Assembly (NCBI GenBank): GCA_026770025.1 | Contig: JAMXDE010000061.1 | Location: forward strand, 288,394-352,393 | Source of the DNA: Craspedostauros australis | Lineage: Eukaryota > Bacillariophyta > Bacillariophyceae > Mastogloiales > Achnanthaceae | Direction: 5' to 3' | Length of the DNA: 64,000 nucleotides | Part shown: positions 31,609 to 60,204 of the stretch, in pieces | Layout of the letters: every line of letters begins with the position of its first letter | Numbering within the stretch: the first letter of the stretch is position 1 | Translations under genes and position numbers: made by a program | The notes under the pieces: generated by a model | Seen by the model: the letters and a program-made list of their open reading frames with translations, nothing else | The model's database searches: none | Told to the model about the DNA's origin: nothing

Positions 31609-31888
31609 GCTGCGTTCTGTTATACATATGATATACAGTAGCTTATAATCGCTAGGGGTCTCACGAGCACGGATGGATGGAACTGGACGATCGCAAACCA
31701 AGTGGTAGGTTGGAGTGCGCCACGCTGCCCCATGATGCGAGCTCGACAGGAGGAAACGGGGACAACTACGTTCGTTGGGCTAAGATCGTAATACTCTGCA
31801 AAAATCATCGCGGCGCTTTCCACAACAAGAAAGCGTGAATTTGTTATTTTGTATTGGCGACTGCGCTGCAGACGTTGAGAAATCGTGT
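31609..31888. other. Displaced 3' flank of the ATPase gene
   Basis: Before the insertion this stretch followed the ATPase stop directly, so it probably holds the original 3' UTR and polyadenylation region. I see no gene in it. Confidence 0.5.
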
Positions 31889-32680
31889 GAGGAAATTCAT
31901 TAACCAGCCCTTTTGAAGTGCCGATTTGCATCAACCAGCCTGTTTTGTGTTTCTTAGCGACCCAAAACGTCCAAATGTCCATACGACGTCCCGTGGACAC
32001 AACATCTCACATCGACTCGCAAGTTTAGGTATAAATATAGACTACCTGCACTACACACGAAAAGTATAAGCCACATCATACATGTTTAGCATAACCGCCA
32101 TAGAATGCAATCAAATAGTCCACTAAAATTTAATGCATCTAGTAAAAGGAATAAATGGCTACCTTAGTTGTAGATGTGTACATCATCCATCTGTTTGCTC
32201 CAATTCCTTGCGCTGTGGATCGTATTCTGACGACACGTTCAATGGAAAGGACAAAAATATTACATTCTAACAAGATAAGAGCATGGAGAGCATTCCAATG
32301 GGTATATTATTAGCTTGTGGGTATCTAAATCCATCTGGAAGAGATGCTGGTATCCAAATCTGTGAATCGCGTGATACTGAGTGGTGCGCATTGCACTGTA
32401 CAGTCTTCTGCATATCTATGCATTCGGCAGGCCATTTTGAGAGATCCGATCAGCCACATCACTCCAAGAACACTCCAAAGAGTAAGGACATGAAGTTTGA
32501 AGTCTTTGATCCGTCAGGAAGGGATCCAATTCTATGGATGCTGATATCCACGGTGATTTTTCGTCGCGATAATGGACCCAAGATGCGTCAGGACGCAAAT
32601 TTCGAGACAATTTTCGATCTTTTGCGTCAGGACGCAAATGGAGAATTAGTGCGACAATTTAACACGAGGGATAAATTACA
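31889..32680 (+). repeat. Left inverted arm of the foldback-like element
   Basis: Inverted relative to 35110-36868. It starts with GAGGAAATTC and the duplicated 12-mer motif, holds two ~180-bp subrepeat units (anchors near 32338 and 32518), and ends with the palindrome cluster. A 176-codon frame (32283-32813) crosses the two units in one frame and reads inward; each unit encodes a variant of FEVFDPSGRDPILWM. Confidence 0.8.
32586..32643. repeat. Palindromic GCGTC-AG-GACGC motif, two copies (left arm)
   Basis: GCGTCAGGACGC occurs near 32589 and 32630, spaced about 40 bases, each followed by AAAT. It is an inverted repeat with a 2-base centre, at the inner edge of the left arm. The same cluster, inverted and with three copies, lies at the inner edge of the right arm. 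Confidence 0.85.
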
Positions 32681-33073
32681 TCGACTTGTTGGACTCAGCG
32701 CCACAAAACTCTCTCCTTCTTGTGTTGATTTCCTTCGTGTTATTTTCTTAGCTCTTGTCTCGTATTATTTTTGCGCAGTGTTCAGTGTTCTCTGCATCAA
32801 GCACATACTCTAGAGGATGTTGTCGTTTGCAGTGATCATGAAGATACCAACTCTAGTTTGTTGGTACCATATCAGTAATTGCACTACTATGATGCCGTAA
32901 CTGTGGTGCTTTCTTTAGCTTTCCGTGTGTTCATGTCTCTTCGATTACTTATTTTTCTTCGTATGCCAATAGGACCTGCGGTCCTTTCCGTTCTTCCTCC
33001 ACGTCGTCCTGTGCCTCTTCAGGCAGCTTCACACACCACATTAGTGTCTCATTCATTCCTTGCGAGGTGAGAT

Positions 33074-34490
33074 GTGCGTCTTAGTTTGTGTCTGCGTCTG
33101 TGTTGCTTCCTCCTTCCATTGGGTCCCAACCTCATTAGATGTTCCTGTCGAATCAAGATCGCCATCCATGTGCTTATCTTTCAAGCAAAGATTGCTTGCT
33201 TCATTGAGAAACATGAATGTGTTAGTACAAATGTGAATAAGATAACAACGGAGCAAGCCATGCAGTGTTGGCATCCAGCAGCGGTCTCTGTGAGGGAGAA
33301 GGCGAATGCAGAGTGGGGAGATGACATGCTTCGGGTAGGAGGGAATCCAGATATGGTCCAAGAGATGCTCTGCTAGCTGAGGAGTTGGAGCCACATGGAC
33401 AACATGGAGCCAAGAGCACCAACGTGAATCCAAGAAGCAGTCAATGCCCAACAAGTGATCGGATGGGGCATGATGGTGCGTGGGCACTGGGCGAGGCAGT
33501 GGAGGACAATACAGGAGTCCGTGATGATGGAGGAAGAGCTCCCAACAAAGCCGGCAAACTGGAGAGGCATAGCTGTTCGAGGGCTGTGGGAGGTTTGACA
33601 GAAGCCATGGGAAGCGTGCAACCGTGTGCTGCATGACCAGGATGGACGCAAGCGCGCGGCAGCCAAGGAAAAGAAGTATGAACCAGGGTGAACGAGCAAT
33701 GGGCGATCGGAGGCGGAGGTATCCTGGCCACAGACCAAGCCCTCATGACGAATGTGGCAAGAGTGGAGGTGGTGAGGTGGCCAGTGGATGCTCAGAGCCA
33801 GTGAGTGAAGCATGTGCAAGCAGCATGGATAAGGGCCCAGGCAGTTGAGCAGCAACAACGTGCAGCAATGCAGGAGAGAAGAGGAGTACGCCAAGGACTC
33901 ACACACGCCGTGAGAGTGCAGTGACGAGAAATGGGTCTGCGCAAACGACGGTTATACGGGGCCTTGGGAGGAAGGGCGAACAAGCAACAATGTGGAGCAC
34001 GGATCAGTGCATGAGGTTCGTGAAAGAGCATAGCGGGCGCAAGTCGGATGCCCAGTGCGGTATGTTTGATGGCCCATGGTGCTGACAAATCGTGGTAGGC
34101 TAGGCAGTGAGAGACACAGGGAAGTCATTTCAGTGCAGTCGGCCCTAGGCTCGTTGTAGGCGGGCAACACTAAAGCCTTCAAGGTAACTTTGTACGCGGA
34201 GGACATTCAGTGACTTATTATTGTTCTTATTAACGTGAATAAGAAGATGTACATATTTGATAGCAGGACGGCAATCGGATTCATCCAGATTCTGGCAACA
34301 AGTATGGCCGCCAAGAATGCACTCATCACCTCACACGTTAGTTTCTGCCAACCAAAGGGGGCTCATTTGACAATGATGCGGATGCCCATACCGGCAAACA
34401 TGATATGCTTCTCTTGTATGTATGTATGTCTCATGTGGTCTTGGAGCTGAACTCTGCACAGGAAGGACATTCATGCCTTTGATGGTGCAA
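33074..34490 (+). pseudogene. Broken coding sequence inside the foldback-like element, function unknown
   Basis: Plus-strand reading gives fragments in several frames. Readable words are EQAMQCWHPAAVSVRE (~33255), QQVIGWGMMVRGHWARQWRT (~33450), RGIAVRGLWEV ending in a stop, and later TAIGFIQILATSMAAKNALI (~34265). The Trp-rich IGW...RG...W pattern is reminiscent of multi-copy stramenopile repeat proteins, but I cannot name a family. Relative to the copy at 61-64 kb, this copy has an extra C near 33448 and several 1-base changes after 34340 that shift frames, so copy 2 is the less broken version. Confidence 0.45.
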
Positions 34491-35146
34491 GCTCTTGCCT
34501 GCGACCCTGTTTGCGGTGGGGATGCGCTGAGTGTTGGAAGTCCAAATCTGGTAAGCACAAGTGTGAGGACAAATGAAGGAGCATCCCTTTTGATTTGAAG
34601 CGATACGGAATGAACGAGAGCCTTGTACTTGCGTGACAAACAAGTGGTTGATGATCAATGTACAGAGGCGAATCGTCGTGCCGAAGGCACGAAGTGTGTG
34701 CTTCAACCAACTCCACAGACAACACGGAGCTGATGGGTGACTGGAAGCACTCTTTGAACACAGAAGTATCAAACATAGGCAGCCAAGCTGGCAAGGAGAG
34801 TGGTAAGATCACAACAGGAAGGAGGACGACAGAGCCCGATAAACATACCTGGCTCCTTTTCTCCTCTTCGCAAGCAGGAGAGCATGCACAAGGTAAATAA
34901 GGCAATGTACAACACATAAATCACTAATATATGCATTGCAACATTCAGAGAGTTGTTTTGATACTATTGTTGCTGGATGTGGAGCGCAGATAAGATTTGC
35001 ATCCATCAGTACAAAACAACACGGTAAAACACACAGTATTTGTCCAAAAGCACAGGCGACAAATGACGACAGCGAACGATTTTTTTACGAGTGTTCGAGT
35101 GAGTCACACCATTTTTCGCCCCGTGTTAAATCTCCACGTTAAATTC

Positions 35147-35238
35147 AATTTTGCGTCCTGGCGCAACCAATTTTATCCATCCGGGTACTTTTGCGTCAGG
35201 AGACAAAAAACAGTGATTTTGCGTCCTGACGCAACAAA
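35147..35238. repeat. Palindromic GCGTC-GACGC motif, three degenerate copies (right arm)
   Basis: GCGTCCTGGCGC (~35154), GCGTCAGGAGAC (~35195) and GCGTCCTGACGC (~35222), spaced about 30-40 bases. The cluster is inverted relative to 32586-32643. Confidence 0.75.
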
Positions 35239-35404
35239 AAATCACCGTGGATATCACGCGGTTCTGAACAGTACGCGTCACGCTGTACAGCGTTCTGAGA
35301 ATATGTACATAGACATTGGCGGTCATATTCAAATCCAACACTTTGGTGAATCCGAACGCATTCCACAGAGCACAGACATGGGGTTTGAAGCCGTGAATCC
35401 TCCA

Positions 35405-36590
35405 GGAAGACATATCGGTATGTGCCCAGGTGATCCACATGTCATCACACCGCTCAGTGACACTCCACTTCAGCATCCGTAGAAAGGGACCCCTTCCAAA
35501 TGGATATGGGACTTCAACCTCCATGGCCACAGCCTTCGGAGTCTACTTGACGCAGCGCAGTTGGTCGGATCTCTCAAGCCAGCTGGCTGAATGAACATAT
35601 CCGCAGAAGGCTGCACAGCGCAATGCGCATCGTAAAGCCCCCTCCCAAACAGCATCACCAGATATCCTTATCCCCAGCTTTGGATTGCTTCCAGATGGAT
35701 CCAATACTTCAAACTTCATGGCCGCACCCATTGGAGTGTGGTCGGAGTCATCCAAGCATTCGATTACAATATGGCCAACATTTTATATGCACGTATTCTC
35801 AGAATGCTATACAGTGTGACGCGGACGGTTCAGTACAGTGTGATATCAGCATCCATAGATTGCGATCCCTTCCAAACGGATAAAGAACTTCAAACTTCAT
35901 TTTCATACTCTTTGGCGTATGATTGGTGTGGTCGGAGCGTTGGATTGGAATACGATTGCCAGTTCCTGTGTACAAACATCCAAATAAATGTACAGTGCGA
36001 TGCGTACCAATCACTACTGTATGATATCTGCATCCATAGAATTGGATCCGTTCCTGATGAATCAAAGACTTCAAAATTCATGTCCGTACTCTCTGGAGTA
36101 TGATTGGAGTAGTGAGGTTGGTTGGACCTCTCAAAACGGCCTGCCGAATGCATAGATATGCGGAGTACAGTACAGCGCCATGCGTACCGCACAGTATCAC
36201 GAGATTCATAGATTTGGGTGCCAGCACTCCTTCCAGAAGGACCCAGATCCTCGCAAGCCACCCCCATACCCATAGAAGCGTCGTTGCTATGATGACATTG
36301 GTGGAATGGTATATGTTGAATCTTTCATATGAAGGTTTGGTCAACACCCTGCACACTGCACACAGCCACCGTGCGGTATCCCGTGATTTGGCCGCGTACA
36401 ATCCGCAACACCTTCTAGATGGATCCAGTCACTCACAAGCTATTTGTATACCCATTGGAATGCCTTCGATGCGCTGAATTTGTTAAACTGTACTATTTTT
36501 GTCCCTTGCAATGAAGATGTCGTCAGAATACGATCCACAACGCAAGAAATTGGAGCAAACAGATGGATGATGTACATATCTGCAACTAAA
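35405..36590. repeat. ~181-bp tandem subrepeat array, six units
   Basis: The anchor TTCCARAYGGAT (or variants) recurs at 35494, 35689, 35870, 36051, 36231 and 36413, spacings of 195, 181, 181, 180 and 182. Units are diverged. Read on the minus strand they encode related ~60-residue peptides with words such as KFEVFDSSGTDPILWM and HSAGRFERSNQP. Confidence 0.8.
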
Positions 36591-36879
36591 GTAGTCACGT
36601 ATTCCCCTCATTGGATGATTTACATTCGTGTGGACTATACTGGCAATATGAAGATGATGATGAACATGTATAATATGATGTGGCTTGAAGTTTTCCTGTG
36701 TGGTACAGGTAGTCTATATTTATGCACTAACCATGGCAGTCGATGCGAAATCCCTGTGTCCATGGGATGTCGCATGGACAATTGGACGTTTTGTGCCACT
36801 AAGTGTTGCAAAAACAGGCTGGTTGATGCAAATCGGCACTTCAAAAGGGCTGGTTGATGAATTTCCTCGTTGTGTTTTG

Positions 36880-36913
36880 TATTCCTCCGTTCCGAAATGA
36901 TTTCCACTTATCT
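36880..36913 (+). repeat. 34-bp inverted repeat, left member
   Basis: Inverted match with one mismatch to 56642-56675; core GTTCCGAAATGATTTCC. Starts 11 bases after the right end of the foldback-like element. Confidence 0.8.
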
Positions 36914-37700
36914 TTTTTGTGACATGTGTTGAGACACCAAAGACGTCATCAAAAGTGGGGGTTGCGGTAACCAAATTGCCTGTTTTTAGTGAATCTTCCT
37001 TCCTTCGAAACTGGCGCGCTCGTCATTGGTCTCTGGCGGTGCCAGGTACCACGACAGCAGAATGCGATACCATCCTGTGTGTCGCTCCGACAGGTTTTTA
37101 TCATCGATGCGTTCCGTCCCTCTCCTCTGTTCGTGGATGTCTTCCTGCAATTCTGTCGTGACGTCACATCAGGTGTTCGAAAGCGTTCATAATTGTTAAT
37201 TTTCTTATGTTTTCGATGATGCAGCTGTCAGAAATGTGCCAAAATACAAATTCTGACAGTGCGAATTGGTCGAAGTTAGCATTTTTGCGTATTTTTAGTT
37301 GGCTTTGTTGTGTTCAGCTTTTGCAAACTCGCTTGTTGGCATACGTACTTCCGTATGATGACAGATGCTGATGGAGGCACCTCGGCTGCCACAGACCTTG
37401 ATCATCACATCTCCAATACTCTAAATCCACCATTAGTACCATCTCAAACACACCACACTCGCACAATAGTGACAAGTGATGGCTTTTTCACGTGTCACGT
37501 GAATCTTTCATTGCTTCCTCTCTTCGCAAGTGCTCAGGGACATGACATTCCGTTGCATTCACAGTATCTTCCCTCAACGTCTTTGCCCATGCTCTCCATT
37601 CTTGCTTCCTTCTTCCTTCCATTATGGCTGTCAACAATGGTAGCGCCATGCTCTTGTTGATGCCTCCCTCATCTCTGCGTGGCTCAGTTGGACGTGGTTC
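36914..37700. other. AT-richer region without recognised gene
   Basis: Internal side of the 34-bp inverted repeat. A small inverted pair, CTGTCAGAA / TTCTGACAG, lies near 37227-37260. The plus frame 37310-37660 has no domain I recognise. Confidence 0.4.
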
Positions 37701-38180
37701 CCCTCATGTGGGATGACCTCAAGACTACCACCAACAGTGAATTCTACAATTTGCTCAACAGTGATGATGACTTCTTCCATGCCCAATTGGTGCATTGATG
37801 TGGCAGTCTTGTCCATGTCCGTGGCAGGTGGAAGCTTTGATCATGGTTTCATGCTTGTGGAGATGATGGCGACGACGATTGGGTTGCCAACTTCCAGGCC
37901 TGCAAGTTCCGCATGTATCTGCACCACTTCACCACTGTTCCAAGTGCCAATAGCATCACTCTGCCAACATGCATCGCGCCACCACCAGATCCCGCACTTG
38001 ATGCAGTTGACACCACTGCAGACAGCGATGCCAGGATTTCTAAGGCTCCTGCCAACAATGATGTCCCTGCGGATGAGGCTACCAATGTTGGAATGTGCAT
38101 ATGTGTATGTGCATCGCTCACTCATTGTTCTCTTATACTATACACACAGATGGCGCAACTACATTCGTGTTGATGGTGAA
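37701..38180 (+). pseudogene. Possible decayed retrotransposon gag fragment
   Basis: One plus frame reads DLKTTTNSEFYNLLNSDDD, then stops, then DDDWVANFQACKFRMYLHHF and a Pro-rich stretch. The mix of Asp-rich and Trp/Phe/Tyr helical sequence resembles gag of diatom copia elements and could be the 5' remnant of the decayed element at 52.9-55.5 kb. The link is an inference; no direct junction is visible. Confidence 0.3.
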
Positions 38181-38513
38181 CTGTGATTGATCGAAATCAC
38201 ATCACGACTTCGGACACACAAAAACCACCAAAATTTTGGGGAAATTTGTGAACAACCATTTATGAGAGCATAAGGAACATCGTCTGTCCATCCATCAACA
38301 AAACATGTGATATCGAGTCAGGCTTGATATGTTTCCCAACTAAACCTCAAATGACGACACCCTCACCAGACCACTGCATCATCAATGGAATCTGGAATCT
38401 GAAGGACCATGGAAGACAACAGCTGACATTGACAGGATGTCATCATGTCACCACGTTGGCAGCTGTCTCCACATCAGATCAAGAAGGCAAAGATTCAATG
38501 GCCAGGCAACATC
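38181..38513. other. Region without recognised gene
   Basis: Short frames only. It precedes the LTR-like repeat and may belong to the older element that was split by later insertions. Confidence 0.35.
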
Positions 38514-38850
38514 AAGATCATAGATATACAAGGAGGAGTTTGGACATAACATTGGCGAATACTCGCAGAGTAGTGGGCCAGTAGAGGACAAGATGGCTGA
38601 GCATGTGTCGAATACAGAGCACATATCGAGTATGAAATATTGCTTGTTGTGAACGCAAAATATCAAGAGAGAGAATACGAGCAATGACAAGAGAGCATCT
38701 TGTGTGCCAACTCATAGTCAGAGAGAGACACCAGGAACATCAGAGGAGCAATGTCATGAAATAGCAATTGTCATCATAACACCCATCACTGTCTTCCACG
38801 ATCGCAAGGTATCCGTCTACGGAACTTTCCAACACGTTTATAAACGATAG
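38514..38850 (+). repeat. LTR-like repeat, left copy of the 38.5-52.8 kb copia element
   Basis: Begins AGATCATAGATATAC and ends GGAACTTTCCAACA. It matches 52506-52848 along its full length and its second half matches 52231-52503, with many substitutions. It lies just before gag, where a 5' LTR is expected. Confidence 0.55.
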
Positions 38851-38915
38851 ATCAGGGCGAGCCCGCGGATCGGATCGTGCGAAGAAGACCACATCATTCA
38901 GGAGCAGCAGGCTGA

Positions 38916-40342
38916 ATGAGTGAGGAAGAGGAATTGAAAGACATCCCTCTGTCCAACCCAACTATCAAACAAGAAGAAGGTGCAAGTGAGACTCCACTTC
39001 AACCACAGAAGGAAGCAGGTGCACCCACTGTCCTCTCTAGCGCAGAAGGAAGCGCGATCAACGAGACCAACGAGGAACGGTTTGCGAGACTACAACTTGT
39101 GCAGAAGAGCATTCTCACAAATATGAAGCAAGAAGAGACAGGTGTGGCGAAGAGCATTCGCACGGCCAAACAGAGCAGAGAAAGTGAGACAACATGAGGA
39201 GGAGAATTTGTGACAAAAGACATCTCTGCGGAAACACGAGCGAAAATTGAAAAAGTGATCACACAGAAACAAACGGAGATCACAAGCATGCGCGTAACAT
39301 CAACGAAGCAACGGAGTAACATGGCAACATCAGCCAACATGAACAAGCAACCCATCAAGGCACCGCTATTCAGTGGTAGTCAGGAGGACTACAATGCCTG
39401 GGAGTCCCAAGAAAAGGCGTACATGCGTGCGCAGAGAACGAGAGATGTGATGTTGGGGAAGACGAAGATCCCAACCAAGAGCAAAATTGGAGCCACCACA
39501 GAAGCAGACAAGGAAGTAGTGGAGGAGATCTACGAGCTGGCAGCTGACTGCTTCAGCGATCTGATCCTCATGATGGATGCAGAGAAGGGTACAGGCAAGC
39601 AAGCCATCCAATACAACAATCGATGCATCTCCAACATATTCCCTGAGGGGAACCCACATCAGGTGTGGAAACCTCTCACGGAGAAGTGCAAGCCATCCGA
39701 CGCCGCCACCAAGATCAAGCTCAAGAGGCAGTTCAACAACAAGAAGATGAAGAAGGACACTGATCCAGATGTCTACATTGCATGGCTCAAGCTATTGCGC
39801 TCCTGCCTTCAAGACGTTGGGCACAAGATCAGCAACGAGGAAATGATCATGCAGATCCTCAGCACAGTGAGTGCCGAGTACAAAGCACAAGTCGTCAACT
39901 TTGAACATCAACTCACATTCAACCCACTGTCGTCACAATCAACGCAATCAGAGCACTACTTCGCTCAGCATACATAACCAACCAAGGAGGGAAGGCCTAC
40001 ATCGACGAATTTCAAGACAGCAGCATGAAGACTAACGACACTGGCTTTGCGAGCACCAGCAACTTCAAGGGAATCTGACACAACTGTGGTGTGTATGGTC
40101 ATTGATCTGCGAATTGTCCCAAACACAAGAAGGCAAACAACAAGAAAAACGCCAACAACAACAGAAAGAACGAAAATCGAAACATCAAGGGCAAGGGAAG
40201 CAGATTCAACAGAAAGTGCCACTACTGCGGCATCATCGGACATCGCAAGGTAGAGTGCCGAAAGAAGAAGTTCAACAAAAAGAAGAAGGCCGACGAGCAG
40301 GCCAACACAGCAAAGGAAAGACATGAGAAGAGCGGCCATGAG
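38916..40342 (+). pseudogene. copia gag with a stop and a frameshift, CCHC zinc knuckle present
   Basis: Starts MSEEEELKDIPLSNP. An in-frame TGA at 39195-39197 interrupts one continuous frame that resumes and runs to 39977. This second part is a helical gag (PLFSGSQEDYNAWESQEKAY, later KLKRQFNNKKMKKDTD.. and LKLLRSCLQDVG). The nucleocapsid lies in another frame: CHYCGIIGHRKVEC, a canonical C-x2-C-x4-H-x4-C, with its first Cys codon at 40217, in frame with the 40343 reading frame. Confidence 0.8.
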
Positions 40343-42558
40343 ATGATGCTCTCCATACTGGACATGATGCTCTGCTTGGAGGTATCCAACGACATCAAGG
40401 ATTCATTCTTCGATCACTTCCAACACTTTGAAAACGATGACGAAGTACACAACGACGAGGTCGTGCCAGCGTGGCTCAGCGACGAGCCAATCATCCATGA
40501 AGTCAACCGACGTCGCGAAGTCAGCTACAAGTACTGCTTCAATGTGAACGACATCATTGATCTGTCCGGAGACGCAGCTGAGATGGGAGCAGAGACCATC
40601 GCCATCGAGTTGGAAGCGGCCGCGAACGCAGACGATGCCGACACCAACGAGAACGGCGCGGATCAAGACAACGAAGACGTCTCTGGCGACGAGACAAACG
40701 GCGGTGAGGCGCCGCCTCCTCCAGTGGCGAGGGTCAATAGAATGGGTATCTTCCATGAAGACAGCAGCAATGAATCAGAACAAGAAGTGGACAGATTCAA
40801 TCCAAACAAGAGAGTCATCTATCCAACAGACATCTCGTTCCCACCAGTCCAGAATGCCAGAGGCTTCGACACCATACACAGGCATGATACAATCCCATAT
40901 CCTACATTGACAGCAGAGACAATGCAACGAAAGCTCATCCACGACGCCGTGATGGTAGCAGGCATGCATCTCTTCCCAGGGATGATCAACGGGGGGACTG
41001 CAACAAGTATGGGTGCGCGTGATTGGCACCATACTGTCCAACAATTTCCAATCAATCGAAGAGATTCTCGCCAACACAGTGATCCTCAACCGGCTGTTGG
41101 AGGAAAGACGAGCCCATTCCAGAGACGGAATTACACTACGTCCTTGGAGGATGTATGCAGGTACTCCTGCGCGAGCGACCACAAGTCACGCCATACGATT
41201 CGGTGACAGGAACTCACCGAGAAGACATGACTCCAGCAGTCGGAGAACCGTACTACGATGGCATGGACTACCACAGGATGGACGACGGGAACGAAGAAGA
41301 TCAAGATGACGACATGGCAGCGGCTGCCATGGAACAGCTTCACGAGCTGAGCACCAAATACAAGGACAAGGTCAACAAGAATACCTGGCTTGCCGACAGC
41401 GGAGCCTTGTGTCACATCGTGAACTCAGACGCCGGTCTCTTCAACGTGCGGCACATCAAGTCCTTCGTTCAAGTGGGAGACAGCACGAAGCTGGACTCTC
41501 CCAAGATCGGATCCATCCACTTGAAGGTCAAGCAACGTGACAACACTTGCCACATTATCTGGCTCAATAATGTGAAGTACACACCCAAGATGGTGGTGAA
41601 CCTTTTCTCTACGAACAAGGCTCTGTACAACAGTTACCAGATCGGTAACGACGGCATTCTGATGGACATCGTCAACAGAGCTGGGAAGAAGATCATCTTT
41701 GATTGCATCTTCCCACCATCCAATGGATTCATCACAGGAGTGCTGATGTATCCCATCATGCCAACTGAGGATGACAAGGCTTCCACAGCCATCATCAAGA
41801 GCCCATCCAAGGAGGTGAGCGCGGTGAGCTTACACCGAATGCTCCGTCACGCACCACTCGAGACCATGAAGCGGACAGCCGCTCAATACGGATGGAAGAT
41901 CATCAGCGAGATGCTGGTATGTCGCGACTGTGCTGTCGCGAATGCGAGAGTGAAGAACATCTCAAAGACTAGAATCCCAAGAGCGACTTGCCGTGGCAAG
42001 CGCCTCTTCATCGATATCAGTTACACTAAACACATAGGCTTCGGAGATAAACGCTACTGGACCTTGATCGTGTACGGCTTCACGGACTACTGCTGGAGCT
42101 TCTTTCTGAAGAACAAGAGGGACCAACCAGGGTATCAAACGATTTGTGCAGACGATCAAGTCACACACAGGTGATCAACAAATCATTTTCCAAGGTAATA
42201 ACAGCGGAGAGAACAAATCCACGCAGGATACTCTCATCGATGCAGGACTGAATGCGAAATTCGAGTTCATGGCGTCCAACACGCCACAGCGGAATGGTAG
42301 AGTAGAACGCAAGTTTGCGTATCTCTACACCAAGATCCGTTCCATGCTCAAGGGAGCACAACTCAACAACAAATAGAGGCATGGCCTGTGGGCAGCAGCT
42401 GCAAGCACTGCCACTGCCATTGCCAAAGCTTTGACAGCAATCCACCATACGCCGATTCACTTCGAACATTCGGAGAGGTGGTTGTTGTGAAGACCACCTA
42501 TGGCAGGATCTCTGCCAAGCTCAAGAATAGAGGAGAAGAGATGGTGTTCATCGGATAT
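40343..42558 (+). pseudogene. copia pol, 5' part (protease, pre-integrase, integrase), interrupted at 42558
   Basis: Acidic Asp/Glu-rich stretch, then, after a frame change near 41200, protease (TWLADSGALCHIV, ~41380), GAG-pre-integrase (LHRMLRHAPL, then VCRDCAVA), the start of the integrase core (FIDISYTKHIGFGDKRYWTL, ~42007), another frame change near 42150, and the integrase C-terminal half (FQGNNSGENKS, RNGRVERK). In the family pattern DNAGEN the second catalytic Asp is replaced by Asn. A stop follows AQLNNK at 42376. The reading ends at MVFIGY, where a younger LTR element cuts in. Confidence 0.85.
42554..42558. repeat. Target-site duplication GATAT, left copy
   Basis: GATAT precedes the left LTR and recurs at 49749-49753. 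A 6-base GATATG duplication with the LTR starting one base later is equally possible. Confidence 0.85.
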
Positions 42559-43229
42559 GTGTTGAGAAATCCGGGTAACCCAGCCTTATTAGTTGTATCT
42601 GATTACCTATTCCTGTTGTTGCATTCTCAGAACTGTGAGCACAACATTTTCATCTCTTTTCAATTTCATTTGCCATACCATGCATAATCCACAGTAGCAT
42701 CACGAGATACTGCTGTAATCATCATGTCATGCAGCATGTACTTCATGTACATCTCATCATGCATCTCATCATGCATCTCATCATGCACTCCATCGTGCAT
42801 TTCATTTCGCCCTACATTCTTGCGGCAGGAGTCCACAGTCGTGCATCCATCTTGTCACAGGTTTCGTCTTGAAACCCGCGACACTTCTGAATCTTTCTGA
42901 TGGTCCAAACCTGCGGCTTTTCTTGTCCGCAAGAGGGCACATGCTTCGTTTCTCCTGATGGGGTGATCACAGACCTGCTGGTCATCGATGTTTCTCCCAT
43001 GACGTCGTCGTTTGATCTGTCTTGCGTTGTCATGGTTTTTCTTGTTAGAGGAGGACAGGCTTGTTGTCTTGTTACGACTGAGATCAGTCACGTTTGTCTT
43101 GAGTCACGGGTCGAGTCACGTATGTGATGAGTCTCGGGTTTGAGTCACGTATGTGAGTCACGGATGGTGCTATTGGGAGGTGCGGCAATCATGGGTATCT
43201 TGGTAAAAGCGTACCCTCGATTCCTGACA
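42559..43229 (-). repeat. LTR of the nested element, left (3') copy
   Basis: Starts (G)TGTTGAGAAATCC and ends TTCCTGACA. It contains a ~15-bp tandem repeat, CATCTCATCATG, at ~42750-42805. Confidence 0.93.
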
Positions 43230-43277
43230 CCCTTCCATTGTCGCATCGACAATATATCATTCTGACTTCATACTCCC

Positions 43278-43385
43278 TTGACTCTCATCACCATTCCTTC
43301 TCTCTCTCTTTCTTCACCTTTCTTTGACTCTCATCACCATTCCTTCTCTCTCTCTTTCTTCACCTTTCTTTGACTCTCATCACCA
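43278..43385. repeat. 46-bp tandem repeat, ~2.3 units
   Basis: TTGACTCTCATCACCATTCC recurs at 43278, 43324 and 43370, each followed by a CT-rich run; it lies between the 3' LTR and the RNase H remnant. Confidence 0.9.
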
Positions 43386-44750
43386 TCACCATTCTCATTC
43401 TCATCATTAATCCATTGCGAATCGCAATTGGATGATGTGGCCCTTGTGTCCTCAACCCGATGTTGTTCATCAGTTGAGTCTGGAAGCGGATCTCATTTCC
43501 GGCCTCCAATAGTGCAACGTGCTCAGCCTCCATTGAGCTCAGTGTCACACTGTGCTGTGCCCTTCCATCTCCAGATTATCGGCACTCCTTGTAGTAGGAC
43601 GATGTGTCCTCCCATACTGATGCGATTGTCCTTGTCACCACCGAACTCGTTGTCGGTGTAGATCACAATCTTCCATGCATCGTTCTCCAATGGACTTGAC
43701 TTCATCCGTGGTCCATATTCTCTTGTGTCCGACATGCACTTCATGATCCCCAGCATTTCCTTGTATGCTGCGGCCGTTGGTCCATCCAACACCTTGGTCA
43801 GTTCGCGTTGGCGATGTCGGGTTGCGAGTGCTTCATTTGATATAGTAGCATACCTACTCCACTTCGGTATCTGCTGTGTTGGTCTCTGTCCACCTTGGGC
43901 AAATCACTATCCCTTTTGGATGCCTTGCCCTGGTGTTCCTGGTGTACCATACTGTTGCAGCTTCATCATGTTGTCCTTGAATGTGATGATGACATTCTTG
44001 ATGATGTGCGGTTGGCTCATCCAGCAGTTCGTCTTGTCGCGGTTGGATACGATCTTGCAGCTGATGTAGTCTTCCAGATCATCCTCCACCTTGGTACCAA
44101 ACCGCTCTGCTTTGATGTCTCTCTTGAGTTTCTTCAACTCCTGTTCGTCCTCGATGCATAGGCAGTCGTCGATGTAGGTTCCAATCAACAGCAGTCTCCC
44201 TTCCTGATTCCGAATCAGAAGGCATGGATCAACTTGGCTTGGTCCGAATCCCAATTTGAGTAGGATGGCGACCAGCTTCTTCTTGCGTTGTCTTGCCCTT
44301 TTCATGAGCCTGTTGATCATCTTCTTGAGCAACAGTCATTCGCTCTCACCATGCTCCACGCCCTTCTGGCAAAGCATGTAGGCCTCCTCTTTGAGATCTC
44401 CATGTAGAAATGCTGTCTCAAGGTTGATAGTGATGCTGTCCAATGTTCAGTAGCATCTTCATTGTGAGCATTCCGCGGTCGGTTGCGTCATGCATCACGG
44501 GTTAGTCCACTCCTGCGATCTGCAAGTATCCGCATGCCACAAGTCTGGTGCAGAACATGCCATTCCTCTTCTCCTTGAAGACCCACTTGGTCTTCACGCA
44601 TTGCTGATCCTTCGGCATCTGGTCCTTCTTGACCTTCTGCCAGACTCCTTGTCTGACCATGTCGTAGAATTCCTTTTTGATGGCATCTCGCCATTTCTTT
44701 CGTTTCGCTGGATCCGCATGATCCCAGCATTCTTCGATTGTATTGGGTCC
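43360..44750 (-). pseudogene. RT and RNase H remnants of the nested element
   Basis: Minus-strand fragments in at least two frames. RT: DPCLLIRNQEGR and GTYIDDCLCIED (~44165; YIDD in place of YVDD), QQYGTPGTPGQGI (~43930). RNase H: KIVIYTDNEFGGDKDNRISM (~43640), then SSMEAEHVALLEAGNE (~43520). Stops follow GIQKG near 43905 and the next conserved stretch (GVGMLLYQMKHSQPDIAN) lies in another frame, so at least two indels are needed to read it. Confidence 0.8.
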
Positions 44751-44754
44751 AGCA

Positions 44755-46387
44755 TCATAGTAGTATATGCATGCTCGGACGTCTTATCCTCTCTCTCACG
44801 GTTGCTGAGGCCTGCTCTGTTTCCTCAGCTGATTCACCACCTCCGCTGTTTGAATCTGAGTCGGAGTGGTGTTCTGGCACGTTGTGGTGTGGTGCCAAGC
44901 CACATAGCATCTGTGGCATCCTCGCCACTGGTCTCATGGGAGAGTACTCAAGGCCCTTGCCTTCAGCAGCTTGCCTCCAAGTCACTTGTGCTTTGTCACT
45001 TCCGCTCGTCAGGATCCACATGATCCTATCATTCCTTAGGCGCATATACACTCGGCATCATTCCAGTGTTGATGTGCACGAATCTCTCTCGCCGTCGCGT
45101 TCGCTCTCAACATCCTGACTCGCAGCGATGAAGTCGATCACTCTCATCCTTCATTGGATAGCACTGATCTTCATGCCTGCAATGTGGTTGTTGATGATTG
45201 ACCTGTTTGTTTCGAAGTTGGGTCCGTCTGTTGCCACTGGAGCAGTCTTCGTCTCCTGTGCAGTTGCGTAGTCATCGTCATCTCCTGATTCTGATGCTTC
45301 GTTCGTCACCCTCATTGGGTGTTGGCATATTGTGATAAGCTGCCAGCTCTGTCGTCATGTTGCCTTGCAACCATGTTGTCGATCGCCTTCATCCTCTTCT
45401 GGATAGCATCGATTCTGTATGCTGCAGCTTCTTCGTCCTGGGAGTTATTGGCGGCATCCTGCCACTCCTCCTCTATTCATTTGAGGTTCCTCCCTTCCGG
45501 CTTTGTCATTGGATTCTTCATCCAACATGCCCGCGTTTCTCATTGCTCTTGTATTGACGTATCTTGGCTCACTGTATCTGGAATCTGCCCTTCATGGTTC
45601 TTGCTCTCATAGCTGTGTCATATCCAGATTTGAAGCTTTCTCTCTCGTCGATTTCATTCTCATCGCACATCGATCTCAAATCTGTGCTTGTGGTATCTCG
45701 CCGATCATTTGGCGTCCGGTTCCTCTTGATCTTCTGCCATGCTCATAGTGTGGCCTTTTCACTGAACCGTTCCATCATGGCCTCCCGCCATTCATTGCTC
45801 TTCTTGGGATCCATATAACCCCGTCATTCGTCAATTGTGGTTGGATCCAGCATCATTGCGTCATTTGCTTGCTCAGATCCTTCTTTGTTCTGTATGTAGT
45901 TCAATGCTTGGTTCGCAGTGATGAAGTCACCCAGGCTCATCCTCTCATGAGTGGTGTCATTCATCATACCTGCGATATCTCTGTTGAATGTTGACCCTTC
46001 TGTGTGAAAGTTGGGTCCTCCTGTCGCCGGTAGTGTGGTAGTCATCTCTTGAGTGGTCTCATACCCAGCATCATCCTTCTGATTCGGATTTTCCACTTGA
46101 TCCAAGTTCTCGTTCCTCCTTCGGATGGGTGTATTATTGTACCCCACGAGAGCACTCAGCATCCTCGGCATGCGCGCAACAGGTTCTGCGATTGGGACCG
46201 TGTTTGGTTCACCTTCGACCATATCGTATCGTCCCATCTCATCGTCCCTTCCGGATTCATCGTCGTCGTCATCGTACAATTCATTGTCCCCTTGGGTAGG
46301 GAGCAAGCCATCTTGCCCGCGAGCAGTGTCTTCTGTATCTATATCGTCTCCGGCTCTTCTGCTCTGATCAGTTCCGTCGGTCTCCAT
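44755..46387 (-). pseudogene. Integrase-RT linker of the nested element, present as two tandem copies
   Basis: Two related minus-strand frames: 44755-45051 (PVARMPQMLCGLAPHHNVP) and 45824-46387 (PVARMPRMLSALVGYNNTP, acidic and Thr-rich). The end of the linker and the start of RT, with EWREAMMER-like sequence, is also repeated at ~44680 and ~45780, about 1.1 kb apart. A segmental tandem duplication of this part of pol explains the pattern. Confidence 0.65.
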
Positions 46388-46994
46388 GCTTCAGATGGTA
46401 TCCGATCGTCGCTCCCAAGTCACTCTTCTATCTGGGGAAACCGTCCCCGATGTAGAGTCATCATTTCCCAGGTCTATCAGTACTGACCTGTTGGCGTTCT
46501 TAATACTCTCGAATCGCCCATTGACTGATCCATCCATGTCATGTCTCTCATGATTAGGATTCTGGTCGTTGCCAGATTCATCATGCGGTGCATACCGCTT
46601 GCGTGCGACCTATGTATCCAATCAGCATCTGTTGGATCAGGGTGGCGCTATTGTTTTCCAGCATATTGTTGATTGCGTACGCGATGCGAGCCACATCGAG
46701 TGTGCTCCGCACGCCAATCTCATGCATCATCTAGTGCAATGCGCGTGAGTGCACGCACCTGCATGGTCAACTTTCGAAGTCATCGATCGCATCATAGTAG
46801 ATCGTCGAAGACTCGAAGTGCACATCGTTGGCAAACATCATGTTGCTCAACGGATATCGAACCGAGAGGTAGATCGGATCTGCGTCCATGAGCAGTCCTC
46901 TGCACTCCTCCCTTTCCGCTTTGGTCCATGGGATCGCTCCTCTTGGACCGTCCGGAATCTGAATAGAGAATGGGATCCCTGGGTAGTCCATGCA
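46388..46994. other. Nested element interior, nothing recognised
   Basis: The integrase would be expected near here, but I find no DDE motifs or zinc-finger pattern in any frame. Confidence 0.4.
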
Positions 46995-47678
46995 CTATGC
47001 ATTCAATGGTCCGTGCTTAAAGCGTAACAGACATCGCGCAGTGTTCATGTTGCAAGGCGACGCCTCATCGATCTTCCTGTCGAGGAAGCTCCGAATTAGA
47101 GTGAGATAACATACCGGCTCTTGGGTGGCTCGGTCAGTCTCCTCGTCCACGTCCATTCCATTCATTTCCGTTTCGTTCTCGTCTGCGCCAACTTTACTTG
47201 ATACGCCTTCATAGTACTTGGCATCCTCTTTGTTGTCGTTGCTGTTGCCGTCTTCCTCTTCATCCTCAGATGGAAAGAGTTCTTGGTCGATCAACTCCTC
47301 GTGGTCGTTTGCAGACCCGTAGTAGCCATGCACTCCCGAAGTGTACTCGGCTGTCTCCTCCCTGGTCCACTCGTAGTTGTTGACTGGTGTTCTGCTGTTG
47401 AACTCGGAGATGCCGTCGTTGTCGAATGTTGCGAGAGCAACGTTGATCAAGATCGCGTGGTCGTCGCGCATCATCGCGTGGTTTCCTGTGGTCACATTGT
47501 TGTTTTGTTGTTCGCGATTTCGGTGATGGCCACTAATTTCGCGTTGGTCATCGCGCATCATCGCGTGGTTTCTGATGGTCACATTTTTGATTTGCTGTTC
47601 GCGATGTCGGTGATGGTCACAATTTTCGCCTCGGTCACATTTTTGGTGCCGACCACGTCTTCGTTGATGATCACGCAC
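46995..47678 (-). CDS. Open frame of unknown function in the nested element (227 codons), with repeated N-terminus
   Basis: I do not recognise this product. Its N-terminal third is made of two tandem units (RNHAMMRDDQREISGHHRNR and a close relative) from an 87-bp DNA repeat. The C-terminal part is acidic (SEDEEEDGNSNDN, MDVDEETD) and ends in a more ordered stretch (YLTLIRSFLDRKID). It lies between gag-like and pol-like remnants, so it may be element-derived. Confidence 0.35.
   Translation of the reverse strand: MRDHQRRRGRHQKCDRGENCDHHRHREQQIKNVTIRNHAMMRDDQREISGHHRNREQQNNNVTTGNHAMMRDDHAILINVALATFDNDGISEFNSRTPVNNYEWTREETAEYTSGVHGYYGSANDHEELIDQELFPSEDEEEDGNSNDNKEDAKYYEGVSSKVGADENETEMNGMDVDEETDRATQEPVCYLTLIRSFLDRKIDEASPCNMNTARCLLRFKHGPLNA
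47465..47640. repeat. 87-bp tandem repeat, two units
   Basis: CGCGCATCATCGCGTGGTTT begins at 47465 and again at 47552; 87 is a multiple of three, so the coding frame is kept. Confidence 0.85.
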
Positions 47679-49077
47679 ATCGGCTCGTCTATTGCGATGA
47701 GACTCGTGTCATCCGTCCCATCCATCCCATCAATCGCGACATTGGTCGACTCGGTCTTTGTTTGTCATCGCGGTTGCTCTGCCTCTTGGCATCACCGCTA
47801 TTCTTGCTTTTGCCTTTCGTTGTTGGCAAGCGTTGATCCGTCATCTCACTGTCGTGGACATCGCGGTTAGGACTGTTACTCCCGAACCGATCGATCCGTA
47901 GTCAGCATCATCTCGCTCTTACTACTGTTGTCTCGTGCGCACTTATAACCGTTTTGGATACGGTGGCGATCGTAGATGAGGCTCATAGCTGCGTGGATGT
48001 TCTTGGATCATCATCTTCATTGATGGCGAGGACATCTCCTGTTCCTCGTCTTTCGTCTTGAGCCTGGGAATGAAGCGCAGCGGAACCTTCCGTCCAGCTT
48101 GTTGCAGCGCTGTCCCTTCTCAGCGAAGCACACACTTCCTGTGTTGCTATTTTTATTGCTGTCGCCAATTCATGGCTGGTAGGTTACATCCTTACCTCCT
48201 TGATCATATCGCAGTAGGAATCACAGCCAGTACTCGAGCTCTGTATCTCACGATGGCCAACAGTGCCACGTGATCATCTCGATGCTTCCATTGCTGCTCC
48301 TCGCATCACACTTGATGTGATGACAACGATGGGCCATGCCCATGCCTGCATATATCTTATTTGTTCTTTATCACATCCTTCCTTCCTGCATGCTTAAGCT
48401 CGATCCGTCGCACATGCCATGTGCACGGACAATCAGCATCAGCGATCTGCGTTGCTCCTCATCCATCTCGGTTTTGATGTCGACCGAGTGGTTCCGAGGC
48501 AGCTCCGCGCCTTGCAGGGGTAGGTAGGAAGCTCTCACCGCTTCCTCTTCTATTGCATCTCATTGAGATCCATCAGCTATCTTGCCTTCATGGCGCAGTC
48601 TGCTGAGTCTGATGCATCCGAGAGCGTCGCCTCCTGCGTTCAAATCTCTTCTCTTGCAAGCAGCTTGCTCTCGTGCTCCAACATAGCCGTGAAGGTCTCC
48701 ATGTGCCTCCCTTGACTTCATGGTCCCATGACCATGGACAGTTCTTTCAATGCATGTGTCGAGCGCCTCCTTGCTTCCAGCAGTACATGCAGTGCTTGTG
48801 CTTACCTCAGCTGCGGTCTCCACTCTGCTGGTGGACTCGCGGTGGTGCTCGACTCGATCATCATCATCTCGACGTCGTCGTTCGTGTGTGGGTTGCCATG
48901 GCGGTCTGTTGGCAAGGAGCACCGTGCTCCAGAGCAGCTTGCTCTCCTCTCTCTTCACACAGGGGACCATTACTTGCGATAGTCTTCGGTGTAGTTGATG
49001 GTCATGTCGACGATGGTGATGTTGGCTAGTGTTGGTGGTGATGGAAACGTTGGATTTCGATCATAACGTTTCGAAAC
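47679..49077 (-). pseudogene. 5' interior of the nested element, possible gag remnant
   Basis: Directly after the 5' LTR the minus strand offers a short start, MTINYTEDYRK, then a stop, then broken Arg/Glu-rich helical frames (48560-48970). No CCHC knuckle is visible. The position fits gag; the sequence alone does not prove it. Confidence 0.35.
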
Positions 49078-49748
49078 GTGTTGAGAAATCCGGGTAACCC
49101 AGCCTTATTAGTTGTATCTGATTACCTATTCCTGTTGTTGCATTCTCAGAACTGTGAGCACAACATTTTCATCTCTTTTCAATTTCATTTGCCATACCAT
49201 GCATAATCCACAGTAGCATCACGAGATACTGCTGTAATCATCATGTCATGCAGCATGTACTTCATGTACATCTCATCATGCATCTCATCATGCATCTCAT
49301 CATGCACTCCATCGTGCATTTCATTTCGCCCTACATTCTTGCGGCAGGAGTCCACAGTCGTGCATCCATCTTGTCACAGGTTTCGTCTTGAAACCCGCGA
49401 CACTTCTGAATCTTTCTGATGGTCCAAACCTGCGGCTTTTCTTGTCCGCAAGAGGGCACATGCTTCGTTTCTCCTGATGGGGTGATCACAGACCTGCTGG
49501 TCATCGATGTTTCTCCCATGACGTCGTCGTTTGATCTGTCTTGCGTTGTCATGGTTTTTCTTGTTAGAGGAGGACAGGCTTGTTGTCTTGTTACGACTGA
49601 GATCAGTCACGTTTGTCTTGAGTCACGGGTCGAGTCACGTATGTGATGAGTCTCGGGTTTGAGTCACGTATGTGAGTCACGGATGGTGCTATTGGGAGGT
49701 GTGGCAATCATGGGTATCTTGGTAAAAGCGTACCCTCGATTCCTGACA
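49078..49748 (-). repeat. LTR of the nested element, right (5') copy
   Basis: Matches 42559-43229 with one substitution, offset 6519 bases. Confidence 0.93.
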
Positions 49749-49753
49749 GATAT
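49749..49753. repeat. Target-site duplication GATAT, right copy
   Basis: Identical to 42554-42558. Confidence 0.85.
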
Positions 49754-52213
49754 GCACACCAACATGCATCAGGAGTGTACAACATGTACAGACCATCAAC
49801 CAAGTCACTGGTCTGTTTCTGCAACATCAAATGGCTCAACCAATCACACGGACAGTTCTGTGGCTGGGCACCAGCACCAAACATATCCAGCAAAGCAGGA
49901 ACAACGGACGCAGACGGCTTCACAACCATCGGACGGAAGGGAGCAATGCCAAGAACGGCAATACGTCAACAATCAGAAGCAAAGAGAGTATCTTTTGCTG
50001 ACACGAACAAGTATCACATCCTATCAGACAGCAACAATGAGGATGATGAGGACGATGAAGCAGTAACTCAACTAATCCATAACGACGACGAAGATCGGAG
50101 CGAATCCAATCATGAGGATGACGAGATCCCACCATCCAGCAACAAAGCCGACGATGATACAGACGTCACTCCTCCGAACACACCAGCGAGGTCTACACAT
50201 GATACACCATCGAGACCTCCACCAAGCAAACCAAGGAAGCGTGACATAGCTAGAAAGGAGAGAATCCGACGTCACGAAGCACGAGGCAGGAAGGGAGAAG
50301 CTAATCCCAAACCGACTACAGGGAAGAGTATTCCTAGAGCTCTGCGTGAGCTTGCAGACTTCAACGAACGAGGCCAAAAGGAGGAAGGTTATGCGAGTGA
50401 GTCGTCATTCAACGAAGATAGTGACGAACTCAGTGACAAGATAACCGACGAATCCAACAAAGAAACTACAGATGACGAGGAAGTCGTAGACGAAGAAGAA
50501 GAGATCGAGATCACCCACTACAATACAACTGGACTATACGGAATGAACGCAATCATCACTGAGACACCGGCAATCGACATTGGACTGTCGATGCAGGACG
50601 AGAACAAGGAACCAGAGAAACACATCGAACCAACGACATTCGATGGAGCTTTCAATCACCCGGATCCCATCCATCGAAAGGGATATCGAGCAGCCATCAA
50701 AAAGGAGTTCGACTCAATGGATACACGCAAGGTGTACAGCAAGATCAAACGAGACGCCATCCCATGCGGCCGCAGATGCTGCAAATGCAAATGGGTCTTC
50801 AAGGTGAAGCACGACAGCACACATCGAGCACGACTCGTTGCATGTGGTTACTCACAAATCGCAGGAGTGGACTTCCAAGAGCATTACTCACCAGTGATTC
50901 ATGACGTGACCTATCGGGTCATGATGGTGATCATGCTGATCAAGAAGATGGACTGCGCACTCGTCGATGTCGTAACGGCATTCCTACATGGAGACCTCAA
51001 CGAGGAGATCTACATGAACTGTCCCAACGGAATGGATCATCAACCAGACGAAGCCCTGACCCTACACAAGCCAATCTACGGACTTGTTCAGAGCGCCAGG
51101 CAATGGTTCAAGATGTTGGTATCGACCCCCAAGAATATCAACTTCGAACAGAGCGCAGCGGACCCGTGCCTGTTCTACAGGAAGACGAACGAAGGAAGCA
51201 TGATCGTGGCCATCTACGTGGACGATTGCTTCTGCTGTGGAGACTCCAAGGCACTGGAGACCTTCCTGAAGGACATCCAAGGCAGCAAATTCAAGGTGAC
51301 AATCGAGCGCGGACTCGGAGACTACCTCAGCTGCAACATCGAACTGAACCATGACAAGACTAGAGCAACATTGCGTCAACCACATCTCATCCAACATCTC
51401 ATCAAAGAATTTGGAACCAAGGTTGAGAAGATGCAATGCTACGGGACACGGGGAACCCCGGGTCAAATCATCGTACGACCATCCGAAGATAACGGACTAC
51501 AGAAGGTCGGACCGGAAGAACATGCCAAATACGGCCAAGGCGTCGGTATGCTACTCTTTCTCATCAAGCACTCGCGACCAGATATCGCGAACCCTGTGAG
51601 GGAACTCTCCAAGGTATTGATTGGGCCCACCAAGGCCGCAATGAAGGAGATGTATCGGATCATCAAGTACGTGATCGATACGCAGCACCATGGATTGAAG
51701 ATCCATCCAGTATGCCCAGACGACGACGGCTGGGACATGGAGCTCTTCTGCGATAGCGAATATGCAGGGGACAAGAACACAAGAATCAGCGTAGGAGGGT
51801 TCATCCTATACCTGTGCAAGGTACCAATCCTTTGGCGATCCAAGGCACAGAAGGCCGTCACACTCAGCTCATCCGAAGCAGAATACGTTGCCCTCTCAGA
51901 AGCGGCAAAGGAAATCTTCTTCGTCGTGCAGCTACTCGAGAGTGTGGGTGTCCCAATGAAGACACCGATCAAGGTCCGTGCGGACAACGTCAGAGCGATC
52001 TTCATCGCCAAGAACCCATCAACATCCCAACAATCGCGGCACATCGACGTGCGCCATCACTACGTGAGGAACATGGTAACCAACAAGACCATCCCAATCA
52101 TTTTTGTCAAATCCGAGCAGAACACAAGCGACGGATTCACCAAGAACATCAAGGCCGACTTGCAACGAGAACATGAGAAGTCGTACCTTGACACATCGAG
52201 AACATTCGAATGA
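49754..52213 (+). pseudogene. copia pol, 3' part (linker, RT, RNase H), open frame
   Basis: Continuation of the pol gene interrupted at 42558. The frame is open for about 812 codons: an acidic linker (~50040-50570), RT (KWVFKVKHDSTHRARLVACG ~50790; VDVVTAFLHGDL ~50960; AIYVDDCFCCGD ~51215) and RNase H (FCDSEYAGDKNTR ~51750; SSSEAEYVALSEA ~51870; RADNVRAIFIA; QSRHIDVRHHYV). All catalytic motifs are intact here, while the 5' half of the same gene carries stops, shifts and a lost integrase Asp. It is no longer expressible as one unit because of the nested insertion. Confidence 0.88.
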
Positions 52214-52230
52214 CCAAATGCACACAGGAA

Positions 52231-52503
52231 GGGTGTCAGGATGCGAATATGTGTATGTGCATCCTGACAACGGAGCACGTATCTAGTACGGAATATTGCG
52301 TAGTACGAACACGCAAGAAAGAGAGAGAGAGAATATGAGTAACAGCGAGAGAGCATCTCGCGTGCCGACTCATAGTCGGGAGACTCCGAGACAGAATTGG
52401 AATAGCAACGTAATGAAATAGCAAGCAGAATTGTAACCACCACCACCACCACCACTATTGTATGCAATCACAAGAATACCCATGAGCAGAACTTGCCAAC
52501 AGA
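52231..52503 (+). repeat. LTR-like repeat, first right copy
   Basis: Starts TGTCAGGATGCG, ends GAACTTGCCAACA, and contains a GA run and a CCA triplet run (52437-52457). It lies 18 bases after the pol stop and is the likely 3' LTR of the 38.5-52.8 kb element. An internal hairpin pairs GTCAGGATGC with GCATCCTGAC. Confidence 0.55.
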
Positions 52504-52505
52504 GA

Positions 52506-52848
52506 TCATGGATATGCAAGGAGGAGTTTGGACGAGATATTGGCAACTACACGCAGAGCAGTGGGCCAGTAGAGGATGAGCGGACTGACTACGTATCGAA
52601 TACGGAGTACATATCAAGTACAGAATATTGCGTAGTACCAACATGCAAGAGAGAGAGAGAGAGAATGCAAGAAACAGCGAGAGAGCGTCTCGTGTGCCAA
52701 CTCATAGTTGGGAGACACCAAGAGCATTGGGAGACTCCAAGAGGCATTGGAGCAACATACTGAAATAGCAAACAGAATCGTAACTACCACCACCACCACC
52801 ATCGTCAGCAGTCGCAAGAGTATCCGTGAACGGAACTTGCCAACACCC
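52506..52848 (+). repeat. LTR-like repeat, second right copy
   Basis: Tandem to the previous one and more like the left copy at 38514-38850, including the leading stretch ATGCAAGGAGGAGTTTGGAC. It could be a second LTR left by recombination or part of an older element of the same family. Confidence 0.5.
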
Positions 52849-55497: not shown

Positions 55498-55540
55498 TGA
55501 ATGCTGCCAGTGAATGCCGCCAGTGAATGCCGCCAGTGGA
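55493..55540. repeat. 13-bp tandem repeat, ~3.6 units
   Basis: GCCAGTGAATGCC units spanning the end of the decayed pol. Confidence 0.85.
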
Positions 55541-56641
55541 GTGCGGTGATCCCAGTCTTCTTTGTACGACATACTGAATTGTTTCCGCTAGCTAACACAA
55601 GCGTGTGAGGTGTTGCATCTGTACACATGTACGATGACAGACGTCATTGACAGCAGCAACAGCTGACACAACAAACAACATCACAACCCCGTAGTCACGA
55701 ATCCATCATCAGCACGAAATCATACACACAACACTCGCGATACTGACAAATTCAGACAACAATTGGACAACACCATGCATGTTGTCAGTAGAAACAAAAA
55801 AATATGAAAATAGCACGATAATTACACGATTCGGGAAATGGATGAGTGTTGCAATCAGTCGGAAATCGCGTTTTCAAAGCGCAACCACAACGACAACACA
55901 AAAAATTGTGCTTCGAAACGTAAAAATGGAAAAGGAAAATTCACAACACGACCAACGTGACGTGTTGGACAAACCCTTCGGAAGCTCGATGGCGTCATCA
56001 TTTAACAATAACTATGGCATTGCATGAACCGACCATCATGATTGGCTGGTTGGGTCGTGGCGTTATGTCAAAGATCTTATTTGGTGGGAACGCAATGATG
56101 TCTGCGACAGGTCACGAAGACACCGATGTCCACAACACGAGGGGAGTTCTCATGTTTCCTTTCAAACAAATATCGATTGCGTGCTTGTGAACACAAATAA
56201 AATGTCAAATAGAAAATCGATGTTTCGTGATTTTGTCATTGCGTCGTTCTTCGCATGTTGCACAGTGTTCTATTTCGCCTGTTAACTGGAGGATGATTTG
56301 GACTTACGGAACAGAGAGTGATGTCACGATAAGAATTAACCTTCCAAACACTCGAACAAGTGAAAGCACACGAACCAACTCTTGCACAGTGTTTCACTGA
56401 CAGAAACGTGGAGGCATGGTGCTGGACAAGCAGTCTAAATGTGGAGATGCTGTCGTCTGTTTTTGTGGTACAGTCTACTTGGTATCTACATATAGTGGTA
56501 CATCAACTATTGATGATACTGCGATGGGTACCGAAGGTCAACAAGGATGCGTCAGACCAGGGTGGGAGGCGACTGGGAAATCGGTCTCCCGCAGCTCCCA
56601 AAGTTCCCCACTACGACACGGTGTCGAACCGATGATAAAAT
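55541..56641. other. Region without recognised gene
   Basis: Only short frames (55779-56027, 56360-56635) with no motif. It lies inside the 34-bp inverted repeat pair and is AT-richer than the gene island. Confidence 0.4.
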
Positions 56642-60166: not shown

Positions 60167-60204
60167 CGTCGTGTTGGCTTCTGGGTGCTGGACGTTCGTT
60201 CTTT

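Follow-up and report, generated by a model that had tools for sequence, protein, structure and literature searches.

Foldback ends have already been joined to the transposase of a Mutator-like element (MULE) in Tm1, a Mutator/Foldback family of root-knot nematodes (PMC3169594), and a 2019 survey described a diatom MULE group (MULE-Diatoms) with a SWIM finger and short inverted repeats, with no target duplication stated (PMC6446971). Among the titles listed from the open-licence literature on foldback MULEs or diatom MULEs, none names a foldback MULE of a diatom. Here we describe one candidate, termed E, from Craspedostauros australis (assembly GCA_026770025.1), found in a stretch of 64,000 nucleotides at the end of a contig (JAMXDE010000061.1, positions 288,394–352,393, forward strand; hereafter “the window,” on contig C59). 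The window copy, E1, contains a second, unrelated transposon, and with a further copy, E2, it brackets 24 kb of DNA in what appears to be a 34-kb unit inserted whole.

E resembles Tm1 in its composite inverted ends of tandem repeats, its mostly 9-bp duplications (8–10 bp in Tm1) and its mostly non-coding copies; as in the E family, a transposase-encoding Tm1 member has a MULE domain, and one Tm1 copy holds a nested second element (PMC3169594). However, Tm1 units are ~14 bp, as opposed to ~181–196 bp here, where they form an internal reverse-then-forward array, and the Tm1 transposase carries a FLYWCH finger and has been placed in Phantom, whereas a SWIM finger is found here (PMC3169594). MULE-Diatoms, in turn, share with the autonomous relatives of E a single frame, a SWIM finger and terminal inverted repeats, though these repeats are 123–124 bp long and the target site duplication (TSD) is entered as “no TSD and not indicated,” while here the autonomous elements checked have repeats of ~350 bp, and 9–10-bp duplications are clear (compared by description; PMC6446971).

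Long inverted ends built of tandem subrepeats, which place E in the foldback structural class, were seen in the window and in copies L033 and L046. E1 (31889–36868, 4980 bp with its nested insertion) has GAGGAAATTC at 31889 and GAATTTCCTC at 36868, and its arms pair at 80% identity between 31889–32341 and 36412–36868 and at 81% between 32298–32548 and 36023–36273. For L033, a copy without the nest, the top inverted match reaches 292 bits, whereas 100 mononucleotide shuffles give 32.5 at most. The ends, arms and subrepeats are real and far above chance, which upholds what a preliminary description of this locus had said of its inverted ends and of arm similarity running hundreds of bases inward. 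Nest-free copies of E elsewhere in the genome show the outer element itself to be 2.27 kb long.

A profile built from the L033 units finds three reverse and then six forward units in L033, in E1 (the nest allowed for) and in L046. In the window, two of the reverse units lie left of the interior and the third at 35265–35424, followed by the six forward units at 35469–36541. The unit positions agree with those first described, but the supposed “extra” unit of opposite orientation is the third left unit, displaced by the nest, so that the count is 3 + 6 instead of 2 + 6 + 1. The ~181-bp subrepeat stands, with forward-unit starts 179–187 bp apart in L033 (profile matches) and 181–195 bp apart in the window (ungapped repeat search). 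As L046, which is ~79% identical, has the same 3:6 asymmetry, this asymmetry predates the E1 copy and, on this sequence comparison, is ancestral to these copies, with no exchange within E1 itself. The unequal exchange first proposed thus does not apply to E1, but it fits at the level of the family, where 4 + 6 units in one element (L051) compare with 5 + 17 in another (L084/L075).

The window's own assembly (74.8 Mb, 90 contigs) was searched separately with the left arm, the right arm, the interior and the inner right part; as the DNA search scores the best 40 candidates, copy numbers are lower bounds. The left arm returned at least 44 matches (best 40 of 162 candidates scored), and pairing of the terminal motif at 72 sites gave 25 paired elements, 10 of them 2268–2274 bp long. 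Copies elsewhere in the genome stop at these same termini, so that the first refuting condition named in the preliminary description, genome-wide copies with other ends, did not come true. Target duplications were counted in the 24 copies with both flanks, which excludes C3:2923751 (L041, whose right terminus is altered), L044 and L045 (half copies), C17:1070321 (L020, with a single end), C6:2290679 (without right-end sequence) and the 22 of 72 motif sites that remained unpaired. They are exact in 19 of the 24 (9 bp in 13, 10 bp in 6) and imperfect in three (8/10 in L043 and in L080/081, 7/9 in L051); E1 and its counterpart on contig C70 (L031) alone lack even a near duplication of their own. 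That the arms are two unrelated satellite insertions, an alternative that the preliminary description had itself named, is ruled out, since the arms share termini, 9–10-bp duplications and unit order across many copies.

These duplications fall within the 8–11 bp expected of MULE target sites. The MULE transposase family PF10551 has nine matches genome-wide (of 14 prokaryote control genomes, 3 also gave a match); elements with paired E-type ends contain five of the nine, and a sixth is found beside an unpaired terminus. Two observations weigh against the assignment: the other three matches show no link to E-type ends, and L051, the one autonomous copy fetched whole, has merely the 7/9 duplication. 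Given its 9–10-bp duplications and the MULE transposases in elements that share its termini, E is, judged from sequence, a non-autonomous MULE.

The autonomous relatives suggest how the foldback form may have arisen. The L051 element is 4762 bp long, with a 662-codon open frame that matches the Pfam families MULE (3e-10), Transposase_mut (2.7e-06) and SWIM (4e-04). FLYWCH is missing among the five Pfam families of this frame (up to an E-value of 0.1), so that, judged on Pfam domains, it lacks the FLYWCH-type transposase of the Drosophila FB/Phantom lineage. The transposases at four other linked loci are 96–99% identical to it (one of them, L087, compared over 598 of 644 residues), and a fifth is a 503-residue piece at 98%. 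In the autonomous elements, the two inverted repeats match over ~350 bp in L051 and three of the four additional pairs, the match in the C4 pair being shorter, at 113 bp. With the arms of E these repeats share 75–85% identity, and the terminal variants ATTAACC, ACTAACC and ACGAACC are each seen both among foldback copies and in one or more autonomous elements. Behind its transposase frame, L051 bears four reverse and six forward units, and a 7.1-kb element on C2 (L084 and L075) bears five reverse and 17 forward; in L085 and L086 the first reverse unit begins at the corresponding place, where the fetched sequence stops. Unit lengths are about 180–196 bp. Since the order in E (terminal repeat, reverse units, forward units, terminal repeat) is the autonomous order minus the transposase gene, E looks, from its anatomy, like a deletion derivative of an autonomous MULE, and probably arose via loss of this gene and of some units. 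The GAGGAAATTC... termini that E shares with its relatives are presumably recognised by the 662-codon transposase of such a relative, with its MULE domain and SWIM zinc finger; this enzyme would excise E and reinsert it with a 9–10-bp target duplication. Mobilisation, which the preliminary description had left unexplained, would thus fall to MULE transposases encoded by elements that have the ends of E.

Two elements, one nested in the other, make up the interval 31889–36868. In those fetched copies that lack the nest (e.g., L033), window position 32548 joins 35250 directly at a single GATATC, while in the window one GATATC stands on either side of the interior, 32549–35249. This 2.7-kb nested transposon has full-length copies elsewhere: outside C59 and C70, at least 10 copies match at 96–99% identity over all 2411 bases of the query or over all except the final 2, and five others at 87% over 2407 bases (four copies) or 92% over 2372 (one). 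In all 10 interior copies whose ends were fetched, ATATC precedes and GATAT follows the element, as in the window (in two of the 10, CATGG replaces the adjacent CACGG). As the target is palindromic, a TA, ATAT or longer duplication would each fit; the nested-element frames at 33053–33742, 33373–33951 and 34431–34808, with the E2 frame at 62198–62935, matched no Pfam family. The foldback anatomy first described stands, though not as one element: these coordinates hold two, each of which also occurs elsewhere without the other. A single 4980-bp foldback element that includes the interior could appeal to the full form being seen only in the copies on C59 and C70, but it is ruled out by E copies that lack the nest and have exact duplications, and by copies of the interior inserted at unrelated sites; we give it next to no credence.

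Other copies of E have also received insertions. The copy at C10:1046771 holds an insert of 7.2 kb whose 632-bp direct ends are identical and which has a frame that is Copia-like by eye (from the frame alone), and that at C10:1973272 holds a 3.6-kb insert, likewise at GATATC of E; both loaded copies retain a 9–10-bp duplication. In L042, a 3.6-kb insert (~2680–6303) with ends GTAAGGAATTTTT occupies GATATC of another E copy, the same target type as that of the window's nested element, and its two frames gave no convincing Pfam match.

Although neither E1 nor L031 carries a duplication of its own, they share one. E1 and L031 differ at 2 of 4980 positions, and the left flank of L031 is that of E2 at the end of C59, identical across the 1434 bases searched. 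The left flank of E1 ends in GAAATCGTGT and the right flank of L031 begins with it (10/10), the sole exact match of at least 8 bp among the 552 left/right cross-pairs of the 24 copies (one other pair attains 8/10). The reverse cross-pair, of the inner flanks, has no exact match and stays at chance level. A duplication is thus found at the outer ends of the composite and none at its inner ends: E1, 24,165 bp and E2 together make 34,125 bp with a single target duplication around them, the simplest reading of which is that the whole unit was inserted via its outer ends. Specifically, one E would have taken up the 2.7-kb transposon at the GATATC site in its left arm; two loaded copies, oriented alike, would then have bracketed 24 kb of sequence; and with the outermost ends (left of E1, right of E2) acting as a pair, the 34-kb composite would have been inserted as one (macrotransposition). 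We infer this route from the flanks.

Drosophila FB elements flank large transposing units in a like manner, with two copies of one transposon around chromosomal DNA and an outer target duplication. The same holds for composite insertions of maize Ac, in which two transposon copies and the intervening DNA lie within an outer duplication; those arise by reversed-end transposition during replication (PMC4270019). E1–24 kb–E2 is known from one assembled locus, without donor or empty site. Galileo of Drosophila likewise has long, internally repetitive, foldback-like ends, and its exchanged duplications betray a two-copy event; unlike in Galileo, E1 and E2 share one orientation, the outer flanks alone match and the transposase is of MULE type (PMC2775673).

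The mismatch of the inner flanks also bears on recombination. The outer duplication could stem from one lone E, with the 24 kb and a second E added later by homologous recombination, for instance through a circle (24 kb + E) that integrated, or through exchange with a second E–24 kb–E array, maybe with more than one tandem 29-kb unit. E1 and the C70 copy, nearly identical over 5 kb, would be good substrates, the 24 kb is present on both C59 and C70, as a tandem array or loop would give, and recombination is known for foldback-type elements whose duplications have been exchanged (Galileo; PMC2775673). Yet such a history requires more steps, and exact patterns revealed no third E with the partner flanks; we consider it unlikely, though not negligibly so. 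Its plainest form, in which two single insertions simply exchanged reciprocally, predicts inner flanks that match each other and is rejected, as they differ; an inversion between E1 and E2 is rejected in its simple form from the flank sequences.

The contig structure itself weighs against macrotransposition, and favours misassembly at the identical 5-kb repeats, whereby the outer flanks would in the real genome enclose just one E, and the 24 kb would lie in another place. C59 ends within E2 and C70 begins ~200 bp past the end position of E1, while the ~24-kb overlap of the two contigs, left unjoined, is 100% identical where sampled in its middle but 97% with many gaps at the start of C70; contig breaks in or beside E and so long an overlap indicate that the assembler struggled exactly at the composite. 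Macrotransposition is further weakened in that the one assembly contains no empty site (when joined, the outer flanks find only their separate halves, on C59 and on C70), nor, by exact patterns in that assembly, the partner duplications expected at the donor. On the other side, the contigs show E on both sides of the 24 kb, the sequences flanking the 24 kb occur nowhere else in the assembly except as members of repeat families, and a plain single insertion leaves the mismatched inner flanks unexplained, so that misassembly seems to us quite improbable. We regard the account as a whole as likely, i.e., E as a non-autonomous MULE with array-derived arms and a nested transposon, and the 34-kb composite as formed by macrotransposition. 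On the narrower proposition that two identical foldback MULEs, each with a second transposon, recently moved the 24 kb as a 34-kb composite, possibly tandem-amplified on C59/C70, our judgment is evenly balanced.

Table 1. Features of the composite locus, in window coordinates.
Feature	Position	Strand	Remarks
10-bp GAAATCGTGT left of E1	31879..31888	.	identical to the 10 bp that follow L031; taken as the target duplication of E1–24 kb–E2
E1 left arm up to nested insertion	31889..32548	+	outer part 31889–32341 pairs with 36412–36868
Left-arm subrepeat unit 1 (reverse)	32208..32373	-	unit profile, element 320–485
Left-arm subrepeat unit 2 (reverse), stops at GATATC insertion site	32378..32548	-	unit profile, element 490–660
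Nested unrelated transposon	32549..35249	+	ends (ATATC)CACGGTGATTTTT / AAAAATCACCGTG(GATAT); at ATAT inside GATATC of E
Left-arm subrepeat unit 3 (reverse), split off by nested insertion	35265..35424	-	unit profile, element 3377–3536
Right-arm six forward units	35469..36541	+	35469–35633, 35656–35832, 35838–36013, 36022–36193, 36198–36359, 36380–36541
E1 right outer terminal inverted repeat	36412..36868	-	partner of 31889–32341
GTTGTGTTT right of E1	36869..36877	.	unlike left flank; found before no other E end
Presumed passenger, 24,165 bp between E1 and E2	36869..61033	.	mostly retrotransposon-like, plus 1113-aa open frame
E2, same nested E, truncated by end of contig C59	61034..64000	+	complete on C70:23989–28968 (L031)

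Within the presumed passenger, the 1113-codon open frame (56924–60265, minus strand, stop to stop) has no Pfam match up to an E-value of 0.1, and all or most of 59817–60239 has relatives at 75–77% identity in at least 14 places in the genome. A segment at 42559–49748, with 671-bp direct repeats (99.85% identical) at its borders, has a stretch of Copia-like frames on either side and is probably a retrotransposon nested within another. To the left of E1, and ending 285 bp from it, an element at 24613–31603 has 376-bp direct repeats (99.5% identical) and frames that are Copia-like by eye. On C70, a 492-codon open frame, membrane-transporter-like by look alone, starts in the right flank of the composite (L031, right of 6569). 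Farther off in the window, a 1005-codon frame (5524–8541, minus strand) has guanylate cyclase catalytic and cyclic-nucleotide phosphodiesterase domains; Rfam and tRNA scans of the window gave no match.

As autonomous MULEs of this diatom already bear both the inverted unit array and the ends of E, foldback copies would need merely to lose the transposase gene. Drosophila FB elements carry tens of kilobases as a unit; if the composite reading is true, foldback MULEs do the same in a very different eukaryote, and would be vehicles for large segments outside animals and plants.
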